The notes under the pieces are model-generated. The model worked only from the letters and a program-made list of their open reading frames with translations. It was not told where the DNA came from and did not search any database. A DNA stretch of 9,715 nucleotides from Candidatus Poribacteria bacterium (GTDB taxonomy: Bacteria; Abyssobacteria; SURF-5), in NCBI GenBank assembly GCA_016215705.1, contig JACRIR010000064.1, positions 1-9,715 on the forward strand, written 5' to 3'. The position numbers and the translations under genes were made by a program. The stretch's first letter is position 1. Every line of letters begins with the position of its first letter. Of this stretch, positions 1 through 9,715 are shown piece after piece.

Positions 1-120
1 GCCTTTGAACTTTCGCCTTTCGCCTTCCTTCTTGCAGGCGTGGTGGGGGACCGGAGGCAGCCGCTTGTCTTCACAGTTCAAAACATGCGCGCGGGAAGGA
101 GCGCATGGCCAAACAATCAA

Positions 121-4969: not shown

Positions 4970-6067
4970 ATGATCCAACGCAAATATAATCCCTCCCTCT
5001 GTCTCGGTGTGGCGATCGGCGCAATCGCTCTCGCATTCGTGCTCGGCATGCTTCGAATAAGAACAGGCATATTCGACGCTGTTGACACACGGACTTCCGA
5101 GATCGCGAATTCGGTCCGCTCGGCTTACCTTACACCTGCCATGCGCGGCCTGACGTGGCTCGGCTACGAGACGGGTCTCATGGTAGTCATCTGTGTCATC
5201 TACTGGCTCGGCTATACCACCGAGGCGCTTGTCTTCATGCTCATGGTTGTGTTCGGACTGGCGCTCAACTCAATTATGAAGGATGTGTTTGCCCTTTCGA
5301 GACCGCCGGACAGTCTGATCACCAAACTCGATGATCCGGGCGGATATGGCTATCCCAGCGGCCATGGCCAGTGGGGAATCCTGTACGCATGGTTGATCTA
5401 TTCGTTCCTGGACAGTTCCCTTAACTCCAGTTTGGCTGTTTGCCGCTTTGGCAATTTGCCGGTTCAAAATCCCAAACTCTCAAACCTCCAAACTTCCAAA
5501 CGTCTTTTCCCCGCTTTCGCCTTTTCCCCATATCCCCCTTTTCTTGTATTGGTCTGCTTGCTTCCCATCCCATTGCTGATCGCAAGCCGCTTGTATCTCG
5601 GCGTGCACTATCTTACGGACACAATCGGCGGGCTCATCTGTGGGGTCGCGCTCGTAGCTGGAGCAACCGGCATTTATTGGTATCTGCGCGACTCCAACGG
5701 ATTGCGCGAGTCGTTGCGGCGCTCGTTTGCGGTCAAGGTCTTGCTTTCGCTCGCGCTCTCCGGCGCTTATTTCGGGCTCTCATGCTTAACGCCGGAAGCT
5801 TTCAAGTATTCAGGCCTGGCCGGTTTCCTTTTCGGTTTTCTTCTAGTCTACCTAATGCTCGGTCTCCGCTGGCGGCCGCGGAACCTGTTGCTTATGGTTG
5901 TTGTGATTGCGGTCGGACTTGCTGTTATGATCGGTTTGAGGCTCGGCCTGGCCGCAATCCTGCCGCAAAACGATTTGGGCAAATACTGCCGATATTTTGT
6001 CACAGGCGTCTATCTGGCGGCTTCACCGCTTTTATTCGTGAAAATGGGACTTCTCGAGAGCGCCTGA
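4970..6067 (+). CDS. PAP2-superfamily membrane phosphatase with repeat-derived insert
   Basis: This 365-residue protein has about ten hydrophobic segments and all three signatures of the type-2 phosphatidic acid phosphatase superfamily: K104-x6-R111-P112, P129-S-G-H132, and S206-R207-x5-H213-x3-D217. H213 is expected to be the phosphorylated nucleophile, with H132 assisting. Members dephosphorylate lipid phosphates or isoprenyl diphosphates at the membrane; the substrate here is unknown. Four more spans follow the catalytic core, a longer C-terminal extension than minimal PAP2 proteins have. Residues of about 149-190, between the second and third motifs, are low-complexity (Ser, Leu, Pro, Phe) and encoded by intergenic-type repeats. 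CAGGAG seven nt before the ATG supports the start. It follows the SDR by 23 nt, so it is probably cotranscribed although its role there is unclear. Confidence 0.88.
   Translation: MIQRKYNPSLCLGVAIGAIALAFVLGMLRIRTGIFDAVDTRTSEIANSVRSAYLTPAMRGLTWLGYETGLMVVICVIYWLGYTTEALVFMLMVVFGLALNSIMKDVFALSRPPDSLITKLDDPGGYGYPSGHGQWGILYAWLIYSFLDSSLNSSLAVCRFGNLPVQNPKLSNLQTSKRLFPAFAFSPYPPFLVLVCLLPIPLLIASRLYLGVHYLTDTIGGLICGVALVAGATGIYWYLRDSNGLRESLRRSFAVKVLLSLALSGAYFGLSCLTPEAFKYSGLAGFLFGFLLVYLMLGLRWRPRNLLLMVVVIAVGLAVMIGLRLGLAAILPQNDLGKYCRYFVTGVYLAASPLLFVKMGLLESA
5414..5535. repeat. Short-repeat cluster inserted in frame in the PAP2 gene
   Basis: Three repeat types follow one another here. TTTGGC and TTTGCC-like units occur at 5430-5461. 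An 8-nt period follows: CAAACTCT, CAAACCTC, CAAACTTC and CAAACG, starting at 5473, 5481, 5489 and 5497, differing only by transitions. Then come pyrimidine heptamers: CTTTTCC at 5504 and 5521, CTTTCGC at 5514. The last family is the one seen at 10-23 and, inverted, at 1473-1486. No stop codon arises, so the cluster is translated as a loop between two catalytic motifs. Confidence 0.75.
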
Positions 6068-6261
6068 TCACACTTTTGGCGTGATTAATTATGAAAGAAA
6101 TGCGAGGTGTGTGCAGATTATTATTCACGCGAAAGCAGAGATTTTGTAAAATAACATGGCGCTTCAAGAAGTCTGCGAAAGCGGGAATCCATTCTCCTTT
6201 TCGCGGTTCAACTATGAACCATAAACTATAAACCACGAACCGAGTTTCTGAGGAGAACCGC
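6068..6261. other. Intergenic gap with no gene
   Basis: This 194-nt gap separates the PAP2 gene from the transporter. It contains GCGAAAGCGGGAATCCA at about 6176-6192, which looks like half of the widespread GGGAATCC-type dispersed hairpin repeat, and the heptamer array at 6210-6244. A weak imperfect hairpin just after the PAP2 stop lacks a U-tract. I see no convincing promoter, so it is unclear whether the transporter shares the upstream transcript. Confidence 0.5.
6210..6244. repeat. Second RRYYRYR heptamer array (5 units)
   Basis: Units AACTATG, AACCATA, AACTATA, AACCACG and AACCGAG stand in tandem and belong to the same family as the 20-unit array at 458-597. All but the last unit keep the RRYYRYR pattern. 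The array ends 6 nt before the transporter's ribosome binding site region (GAGGAG at 6250-6255), so changes in copy number would alter the 5' leader of that gene. Confidence 0.8.
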
Positions 6262-7578
6262 ATGAATGATCACGACCGCGACAAGATATTCTATGGCTGG
6301 TGGATTGTGGCCGCCGTCTTTGTGATCGTCTTCTTTGGCCACGGAATAGCTTTCTATTCCTTCAGCGTATTCATAAAGCCGCTCGAAGCGCATTTCGGCT
6401 GGAGCCGGACCACGATTTCCATCGGGGTAGTTCTGTGGGCGCTGTTGTACGGTTTGTCAGGACCTGTTGTCGGAGTCTGCATGGACAAATTAGGTGTGCG
6501 GGTTGTCATCGCCTTCTCTGCGCTGGTTGTCGGATCGTGCTACGTCCTGCTTGGTTCCCTCAATGGCCTCGTTATGCTCTATATCCTGATGTTCTTCTCC
6601 GGAATCGGGTCTGCGGGCGTGACAACCGTTCCGAGTCAAACCATCATATCCAACTGGTTTGAAAAATATCGCGGCAGAGCCATGGGAATTATGATGGCGG
6701 GAGTCGGTCTCGGAGGACTGACAATGCCTCCGGTTTCCAACGCCATAATCACGGAGTTCGGCTGGAGAACATCATTTCGGGTGGGAGGTCTCCTGTTGCT
6801 TTTCATGATAGTTCCGCTTGCCGCTTTAGTAGTACGCGCCAGACCTTCGGACATGGGATTGCAGCCCGACGGCATCCGGAATGACACCGGCGAAGAGGCG
6901 CTGAGCGTCCAGGAGAAAAGGGAGTCGGTGGGTCTATCTGTGAAACGCTCGTTGGGCACTTCTTCTTTTTGGATGCTTTTCATCGCGTACATGCTGCAAA
7001 TCTTCGGCGTCTCAGGACTCACGGTTCATTTCGTTGCCTGCGTTGACGACGCCGGCGTGTCGTCTCAGGCAGCCTCAATCTTCTGGGGATTGGCTATAGG
7101 ATTCAGCGTGGTTGGCCGCGTGGTGTTCGGGTTACTGGCCGACCGCTGGAACCCGAGAAACCTCATGGCTCTCACCAACATGTTTCATGGGGTGGCCGCC
7201 GCAATCTTGCTCGTCTTCTTTTTGCGGATGGGCATTCACTCCGCCGCCAGTCTTTTGCCGTTTCCATTGATATACGGATTGTCAATGGGGGGAACATCTG
7301 TTTTGCTGCCAGTTCTCGCAAGCCGCTGCTTCGGCCTGCGGAATTTCAGTAAACTGCTCGGGCTTTTGATGAGCGGATTCGCCCTGGGCGTGGTTGGTGG
7401 GCCGCTCACGGCCGGCAGGATTTTTGATACCACGGGAAATTATAGACTCGCGTTCCTCATATTCGCAATTGTTTTTGTCGCATCCGGGCTCGCGGTCCTG
7501 TTTGTTCAGCCGGACAGATACATGGCAGAGTTCTCCATCTCAACCCCAGAAAGGAAAGAGGTATGTGTCAGCGATTAA
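6262..7578 (+). CDS. MFS transporter, oxalate/formate antiporter (OFA)/MCT-like
   Basis: This 438-residue inner-membrane protein has about twelve hydrophobic segments in two halves with a hydrophilic central loop (about 195-225). The start FYGWWIVAAVF, the FGWSRTTIS segment at 45-53 and NWFEKYRGRAMGI, which leads into GVGLGGLTMPP, are typical of the oxalate/formate antiporter and monocarboxylate transporter branch. Motif A appears between spans 2 and 3 as G71-VCMDKLGVR80 and is echoed in the second half as GRVVFGLLADRW. Family members exchange or symport small carboxylates; the actual substrate is not deducible. AGGAG six nt before the ATG supports the start. The 3' end overlaps the next SDR by 16 nt, suggesting translational coupling. 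Next to a glycyl radical enzyme operon it is a plausible importer of the substrate or exporter of an acidic product. Confidence 0.9.
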   Translation: MNDHDRDKIFYGWWIVAAVFVIVFFGHGIAFYSFSVFIKPLEAHFGWSRTTISIGVVLWALLYGLSGPVVGVCMDKLGVRVVIAFSALVVGSCYVLLGSLNGLVMLYILMFFSGIGSAGVTTVPSQTIISNWFEKYRGRAMGIMMAGVGLGGLTMPPVSNAIITEFGWRTSFRVGGLLLLFMIVPLAALVVRARPSDMGLQPDGIRNDTGEEALSVQEKRESVGLSVKRSLGTSSFWMLFIAYMLQIFGVSGLTVHFVACVDDAGVSSQAASIFWGLAIGFSVVGRVVFGLLADRWNPRNLMALTNMFHGVAAAILLVFFLRMGIHSAASLLPFPLIYGLSMGGTSVLLPVLASRCFGLRNFSKLLGLLMSGFALGVVGGPLTAGRIFDTTGNYRLAFLIFAIVFVASGLAVLFVQPDRYMAEFSISTPERKEVCVSD

Positions 7579-7985
7579 AGGATAAGGTGGCGATTGTCGT
7601 GGGCGCGGGTTCGACGCCCGGTGAAACTATGGGCATCGGCAGAGCGACGGCAATACTGTTCGCGCGCGAGGGCGCCAAGGTGATGTTGGTTGATCGTCGT
7701 TTGCGTTCGGCGGAAGACACGAAGAGAATGATCAATGAAGAAGGCGGCGAGTCCTTTGCGTTCGAGGCTGATATAACTGATTCGGCAGATTGCAGGCGCA
7801 TGGCGGACGCATGTTTCAAGACTTATGGTAGAATCAATATCCTGGATAACAACGTCGGAATAGGCGAAGGCGGCGGACCCGTTGAACTGAGCGAAGAAGA
7901 TTGGGATAAAGTAGTGAACACGAACCTTAAGGGGGTCACCGGTGTTACCTTGACTGTTAACGGCGGCCAAAGCCTGAAGAGCTGA
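7563..7985 (+). pseudogene. SDR with internal in-frame deletion of the catalytic core
   Basis: The open frame encodes 140 residues, against roughly 250 for the family. Residues 1-124 are a normal SDR N-terminal half: an extended cofactor loop VGAGSTPGETMGIGRA, acidic D70, NNVG at 96-99 and the tetrad asparagine in VVNTNLKG (N121). Residue 125 onward jumps directly to the C-terminal signature VTGVTLTVNGGQSLKS, which normally lies over 100 residues later. The segment with the catalytic Ser, Tyr and Lys is therefore missing, about 330-360 nt, while the frame is kept. The join is at about 7934/7935. The product could not catalyse the usual reaction. It is either a decaying gene or an assembly error. 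It starts inside the transporter gene, which implies that it was once a coupled operon member. Confidence 0.85.
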
Positions 7986-9337: not shown

Positions 9338-9715
9338 CGAAGCCGCAACCAAAGGGGACGAGGGAATCCGCAGATTTCGCGGATTCGCACAGATTCAGGA
9401 AAGAATGAAGAAAGAAAAGAGTTCGATCACGAATGAAACGAATTATGCGAATTACACGAATAAAGAAGTCCATTGATCTAGGATGATTTACGCAGATTTC
9501 CGGGAAAAGAAGAAAACAAAATCATGACAAGAATTCACTGCTGTCCAAAACAAAGAGGCCTGAACCGCAGAGGACGCGGAGGGGCGCAGAGGAAAACGGC
9601 AAAAGCCAATATCCTCAGCGAACTCTGCGTACTCTGCGGTTGATGATTTGTGCAAGTTGTTTCGCCTCTGCTGTTCATGACAAAGGGGTTTCCTGGTTTG
9701 TGCATGTCAGTGTTA
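9338..9715. repeat. Gene-free tail with several short-period repeats
   Basis: No gene is visible in these 378 nt. At 9369-9402 CGCAGATTT, CGCGGATTCG and CACAGATTCA form a loose array, and CGCAGATTTCC recurs near 9491. Four 9-nt units, CACGAATGA, AACGAATTA, TGCGAATTA and CACGAATAA, fill 9428-9463. A larger inverted repeat occupies 9563-9641 and is listed separately. These are different families from the heptamers elsewhere but have the same style: units of 7-10 nt that vary slightly. Confidence 0.7.
9563..9641. repeat. Inverted repeat of CGCAGAGGA-type elements
   Basis: The 19-nt arm at 9563-9581 begins AACCGCAGAG and pairs with 9623-9641, which ends CTCTGCGGTT, at 17 of 19 positions. The arms are separated by 41 nt. 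The left arm belongs to a 34-nt segment (9561-9594) whose reverse complement matches 1566-1599 at about 30 of 34 positions. It could fold as a long hairpin at the RNA level, but no U-tract follows the right arm. It more likely reflects two facing copies of a dispersed element. Confidence 0.7.

Follow-up and report, generated by a model that had tools for sequence, protein, structure and literature searches.

A gene for a predicted PAP2-superfamily membrane phosphatase carries, between two of its catalytic motifs, an in-frame segment of 126 nt that is built of intergenic repeats. Very probably, an intergenic repeat unit was inserted into a duplicated PAP2 gene, survived by virtue of its frame and site, and is translated as a probably disordered loop of a gene that is under purifying selection. 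The window analysed here, 9715 bases in length, is the whole of one contig (C240) of a genome of 5.47 Mb in 270 contigs.

The gene lies at 4970–6067 on the plus strand and encodes 365 amino acids. As the first-pass annotation had claimed, the segment is placed between the PSGH and SRxxxxxHxxxD motifs without frameshift or stop; the reading frame is of full length and stays open throughout. The Pfam model of the family (PF01569) gives a single match over residues 87–239 (E 1.8e-15), spanning both sides of the insert in one stretch, with a score of 57.3 bits against a curated cut-off of 27.2. All three catalytic motifs, which lie on the plus strand, are intact: C1 (KxxxxxxRP, residues 104–112; 5279–5305), C2 (PSGH, residues 129–132; 5354–5365) and C3 (SRLYLGVHYLTD, SRxxxxxHxxxD, residues 206–217; 5585–5620). 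In an alignment of 36 sequences, K104, R111 and P112 of C1, P129 to H132 of C2, and S206, R207, H213 and D217 of C3 are invariant. The best solved structure found by Foldseek was B. subtilis PgpB (5jki; E 6.6e-6, TM 0.80 by target length), which has the PAP2 helical fold. By the Pfam match, the three motifs and the fold, the product is a predicted PAP2 superfamily phosphatase.

The inserted segment comprises 42 residues (149–190), encoded at about 5414–5539 on the plus strand, where the boundaries may shift by a few codons. When 98 genomes were searched, a paralogue was found on contig C30 of the same genome, at 55% identity, and a homologue in G001, which belongs to another genus of the family, at 44%. 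The window protein aligns with both copies in two blocks, 1–148 and 195 to the end, with four residues in between, and in a global alignment the gap is exactly 42 residues in each case. It had been proposed that the flanking protein would read as continuous once the insert was removed; the undivided Pfam match and the exact gap in the relatives both bear this out. Close homologues with the same loop encoded without repeats would have argued against a capture, and none with this loop was found in the homologue comparison.

The spacing from PSGH to SR is 31–42 residues in 76 of 78 distant PAP2 homologues from many phyla, as against 73 in the window protein, that is, 31 + 42. The two remaining homologues have 52 and 68 residues here, and from them it could be argued that the segment is no insertion but a long loop normal for some PAP2 subfamily, which the relatives have lost. 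Such a history is scarcely credible, as the two long loops are unrelated in sequence to the insert, the near relatives do not have the segment, and the segment itself consists of repeat words of the genome, with a copy in intergenic DNA. Longer loops of their own, unrelated and at the same site, are present in two distant PAP2 proteins, encoded at L263 1351–2064 and L228 1432–2439, which indicates that the PSGH–SR connection tolerates changes in length. An intron or a bypassed segment was considered separately and rejected, given the open frame and the lack of an Rfam match; no Rfam family matched anywhere within the window.

The insert has a simple plan: a (GTTTGnnn)n array faces itself as an imperfect hairpin and is followed by a TTTTCCCC/CTTTCGCC tail. 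Its left arm (5429–5458, plus strand) is the octamer array GTTTGGCT-GTTTGCCG-CTTTGGCA-ATTTGCCG, which reads GTTTGnnn on this strand except for two units that read CTTTG and ATTTG, and TRF reports a row of period 16 at 5431–5461. The right arm (5464–5501) is a (GTTTGnnn) array of the minus strand, with a TRF period of 8. Together they form the inverted repeat I1, whose 30-nt arms (5429–5458 and 5465–5494) are 73% complementary. The pyrimidine-rich tail (5503–5539, plus strand) reads TTTTCCCC GCTTTCGCC TTTTCCCC, and intergenic DNA frequently contains its 10-mers TCTTTTCCCC, CTTTCGCCTT and CCTTTTCCCC. Of the three repeat families that had originally been read in the insert, the first two proved to be one octamer family in inverted orientation.

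As a DNA strand, the insert folds better than its dinucleotide shuffles (z -2.6, 3 of 200). Its composition is also foreign to coding DNA. The GC skew is -0.53 in the insert and about 0 elsewhere in the gene, and only 0.01% of 126-nt gene windows are as low; the in-frame hexamer coding score is negative and falls below that of 99.4% of gene windows.

The repeat origin of the insert, as first suggested from the letters alone, is confirmed by a search of its own genome. A near full-length further copy of the segment was found at C26:17294–17411, where 117 nt match at 78% identity. It is situated between two genes, amid a dense run of other repeat arrays. The alignment of the two copies scores 108, the maximum among 200 shuffles being 28. 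The C26 copy is nearer to a perfect octamer array than the copy in the gene, with all GTTTG cores of its left arm intact, and it folds better still (z -3.3, 0 of 200 dinucleotide shuffles). These two are the only copies of the complete unit that were found. The 1.7 Mb of the genome that were scanned contain 11 arrays of three GTTTG octamers; 10 are intergenic, a count that includes both arms of the C26 copy and two arrays in one locus, and the only one in a gene is the right arm of the PAP2 insert. In the same scan, five variant cores gave 0 arrays and mononucleotide shuffles gave 0–1.

The words of the tail are more widespread. In a sample of 1.07 Mb, the 10-mer CTTTCGCCTT has 58 intergenic and 25 coding occurrences, and some tail 10-mers rank among the most frequent intergenic words. 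For the first two parts of the insert, counting exact 10-mers has little power, and the octamer-core scan and the C26 alignment are better suited. The family that the insert had been said to share with the gaps at 10–23 and 1473–1486 was recovered as the word CTTTCGCC: an intergenic array at 10–26 (plus strand, TRF) has the CTTTCGC word in common with the tail, and a copy of the tail word lies on the minus strand at 1473–1486, reading GGCGAAAGGC on the plus strand. Among 290 genomes, the heptamer array AAAGGCG is present in three, namely the own genome, a member of the same family (G002) and one distant genome, and the reversed pattern was found in none. The more stringent pattern TTTGGCNGTTTGGCNGTTTGGC matched one of the 290 genomes, which was not the own genome. 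In plasmids, no match was found.

Other repeats are also present in the window. At 178–285, a 54-nt unit occurs twice in tandem; its palindrome GTAGGGGCGACCCGCCGGGTCGCCC looks like a GTAG-tagged REP, and the related words GCGCCCCTAC are frequent in the genome. Two intergenic gaps (458–594 and 6210–6237) hold the heptamer arrays AACCATA / AACCGTA. The stretches 9361–9470 and 9560–9650 consist of more intergenic repeat words (ATTACACGAAT, CTCTGCG), of a kind that is also seen in the C26 mosaic.

Through an AlphaFold2 model (36 sequences; mean pLDDT 84.7, pTM 0.82), the core of the protein was predicted with confidence. The motif blocks and most core blocks have a pLDDT above 90, and residues 155–167 and 173–185 fall below 50. 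A structural model of the roughly 42 residues had been called for, in the expectation of an extramembrane loop; according to the prediction, they are probably a disordered loop outside the core. The active site of PgpB-type proteins is directed outward, with the connection between helices 4 and 5 on the opposite side. On this ground, the loop would probably be cytoplasmic.

The insertion could instead have happened after the gene had lost its function, with the frame left open by chance or by youth. The C30 paralogue and the G001 copy have the same acetyltransferase-like gene upstream (as read by eye), for which reason C30 is probably the positional counterpart of the G001 copy and the window gene a duplicate placed elsewhere. 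The paralogue could thus cover the function. Moreover, among the three close copies it is the window copy whose branch is longest, exceeding that of the paralogue, although this length does not separate weakened constraint from adaptation. The comparison gave no resolved fork for the three, so that the duplication may be older or younger than the genus split. Against a dying duplicate stand the intact catalytic motifs and the full-length reading frame. In addition, the differences between the window gene and the C30 paralogue concentrate at third codon positions (0.34/0.22/0.57 for the three positions), which is the pattern of purifying selection. Loss of function before the insertion is hence considered improbable, and a capture by a gene that has been kept under selection is preferred. 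A different kind of change is seen in another gene of the window, at 7563–7985, which encodes a short-chain dehydrogenase of 140 aa. It retains the N-terminal part and a short C-terminal end without the catalytic middle (positions 1–118 of 195 of the Pfam model adh_short), and looks like the result of an in-frame internal deletion.

The capture had been presented as a rare case, a view that does not hold for this genome. Intergenic DNA was compared with 1455 predicted genes in 1.715 Mb, about 31% of the genome; part of this sample was picked for matches to the insert, so that the rate is approximate. Internal segments that match intergenic DNA and have coding-like sequence on both sides were observed in 25 genes, with at least two intergenic loci as sources in 19 and at least five in 14. 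Several of the single-source hits are gene paralogues and not repeats. Dinucleotide-shuffled intergenic DNA gave 0–1 genes as a control, and none with two sources. About 18 genes other than the PAP2 gene thus show similar captures in the sampled third of the genome, and the PAP2 capture is not unique. The genes concerned include a gamma-glutamyltranspeptidase, two MFS transporters, a mannosyltransferase with several captures, an ABC transporter linker, an iron-sulphur protein, an FAD oxidase and a TMEM260-like protein, and in several cases the Pfam match spans the segment. For four of them, homologues were found in which the repeat-bearing stretches are absent or shortened; the MFS alignment is divergent and its support weaker, and the gamma-glutamyltranspeptidase comparison has further indels besides the repeat-bearing stretch.

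Such recurrence also bears on the assembly. The contig of the PAP2 gene is only 9.7 kb long and comes from a fragmented, repeat-rich assembly of 270 contigs, in which a repeat may have been wrongly joined into the gene. The insert, however, is 22% diverged from its nearest copy and is therefore not a misplaced duplicate, the reading frame is kept exactly, and a like pattern is found in the other genes, several of them with Pfam matches spanning the segment. An artefact is thus very improbable.

Some of these genes may be described individually. The mannosyltransferase-like gene at L147 3601–5700 (minus strand) holds about four to five CCCCTTTGCAAAGGGG palindromes in different phases, and its G001 homologue is without two stretches there, of roughly 40 and 100 residues. 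The gamma-glutamyltranspeptidase at L098 484–2502 (minus strand) has an extra stretch of 75 residues with IGDTMSHRVPDF, within the Pfam match, the repeat of which is matched by 94 intergenic segments. In the glycosyltransferase/TPR protein encoded at L153 13241–16291, a stretch of 271 nt between two glycosyltransferase modules matches 78 intergenic segments. The central loop NPKSKTCPERSRRIQNPKS of the MFS transporter at L158 15736–16983 (minus strand) is likewise built of intergenic repeat words.

Another proposal is that the insert, once captured, was recruited, so that the 42-residue loop is now functional, for example in binding or regulation, and selected as such. The frame has indeed stayed intact despite a difference of about 22% from the intergenic copy. 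Nevertheless, the loop is predicted to be disordered, its hexamer usage is not adapted to coding, a paralogue without it exists, and the captures elsewhere involve unrelated proteins and each of the three phases. Within genes, the palindrome CCCCTTTGCAAAGGGG is found in every phase, phases 1 and 2 being the commonest, which argues against selection for one encoded peptide. Recruitment is accordingly held to be quite improbable, and the loop seems to be tolerated rather than beneficial. In the literature, no paper mentioning the recurrent captured peptides was found.

The favoured explanation, tolerated capture of an intergenic unit, can be set out as follows. The unit that was copied would be an inverted pair of GTTTGnnn octamer arrays with its CTTTTCCCC/CTTTCGCC tail. 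A copy of it would have been inserted between transmembrane helices 4 and 5 of the duplicated phosphatase. There it may have survived as a multiple of three, stop-free in frame, in a short link that lies apart from the active site, to be translated as the 42-residue, probably disordered loop while the surrounding gene was kept under purifying selection. The direction from intergenic DNA to gene is suggested by the context, as only two complete copies of the unit were found. A given frame is open in a quarter (25%) of the intergenic 126-nt windows, and by chance about one insertion in twelve would thus leave the reading frame intact; a survival filter suffices, and no special coding design appears to be needed. 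The copying itself may have come about by a switch of template, by slippage between arrays, or through Y1 transposases acting in trans. Three genes of the Y1 transposase family (PF01797) score over the Pfam cut-off in this genome and would be candidate agents, but nothing links them to the unit. At the insert, no target-site duplication could be identified.

It is conceivable, though on the whole unlikely, that an active process of the lineage (transposase or replication template switching) copies several unrelated repeat families into gaps and genes alike. If this were so, repeat-derived disordered loops would steadily supply new sequence to proteins throughout the proteome. The apparent captures in any case make this genome a natural experiment for asking how much foreign sequence a protein can accommodate, and at which sites. 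It is also a warning, as captured loops can mislead annotation and alignment.

Some features of the insert are familiar from other repeat systems. Vioque reportedly described, in 1997, STRR heptanucleotide repeats of cyanobacteria in an RNase P RNA gene. Compared by description and not by sequence, the two cases share tandem 7–8-nt words across gaps and inside a gene; the cyanobacterial host is an RNA gene, whereas the array here lies in a protein frame. REPs of the GTAG/CGTC superfamilies are mostly intergenic short palindromes, some of which lie wholly within ORFs of known proteins in several species (PMC3733652). The present genome also has genes with the Y1 transposase domain, by which RAYTs are defined, and these may be RAYTs. 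Unlike these REPs, the PAP2 insert has no conserved tag: CGTC occurs in it only at 5501–5504, where the C26 copy reads CAAACATA. Among the other repeat families of this genome, some look more like REPs, e.g., the GTAGGGGCG palindrome. For Wolbachia and Methanocaldococcus jannaschii, too, palindromes in coding sequence have been reported (PMC2996958).

A close parallel is provided by the Rickettsia palindromic elements (RPEs), which are found in protein-coding genes (Ogata et al. 2000, 2002, summarised in PMC10969869); in R. conorii, nearly half of 44 RPE insertions are inside ORFs (PMC10969869). Like RPEs, the repeats here are roughly 100–150 bp long, have hairpin potential (73% complementary arms; z -2.6 and -3.3 for the two copies), and occur in frame in unrelated genes, where they are apparently tolerated; moreover, neither the paralogue nor the homologue from the other genus has the insertion. 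RPEs, however, are a large family of one element, whereas the unit here consists of inverted octamer arrays and a pyrimidine tail in two full copies, a single genome has captured several unrelated repeat families, and the palindrome that was tested occurs in all three phases. Furthermore, Rickettsia is a reduced intracellular parasite, and the present genome has 5.5 Mb. In-frame repeat capture is best known from Rickettsia; in the present genome, which is unrelated and larger, about one in every 75 predicted genes seems to be affected. Thus, the in-frame capture of intergenic repeats was known before, from the RPEs and from intragenic REPs, and the PAP2 case works as these precedents do; it is set apart by the facing octamer arrays, the number of captured families and the host lineage.
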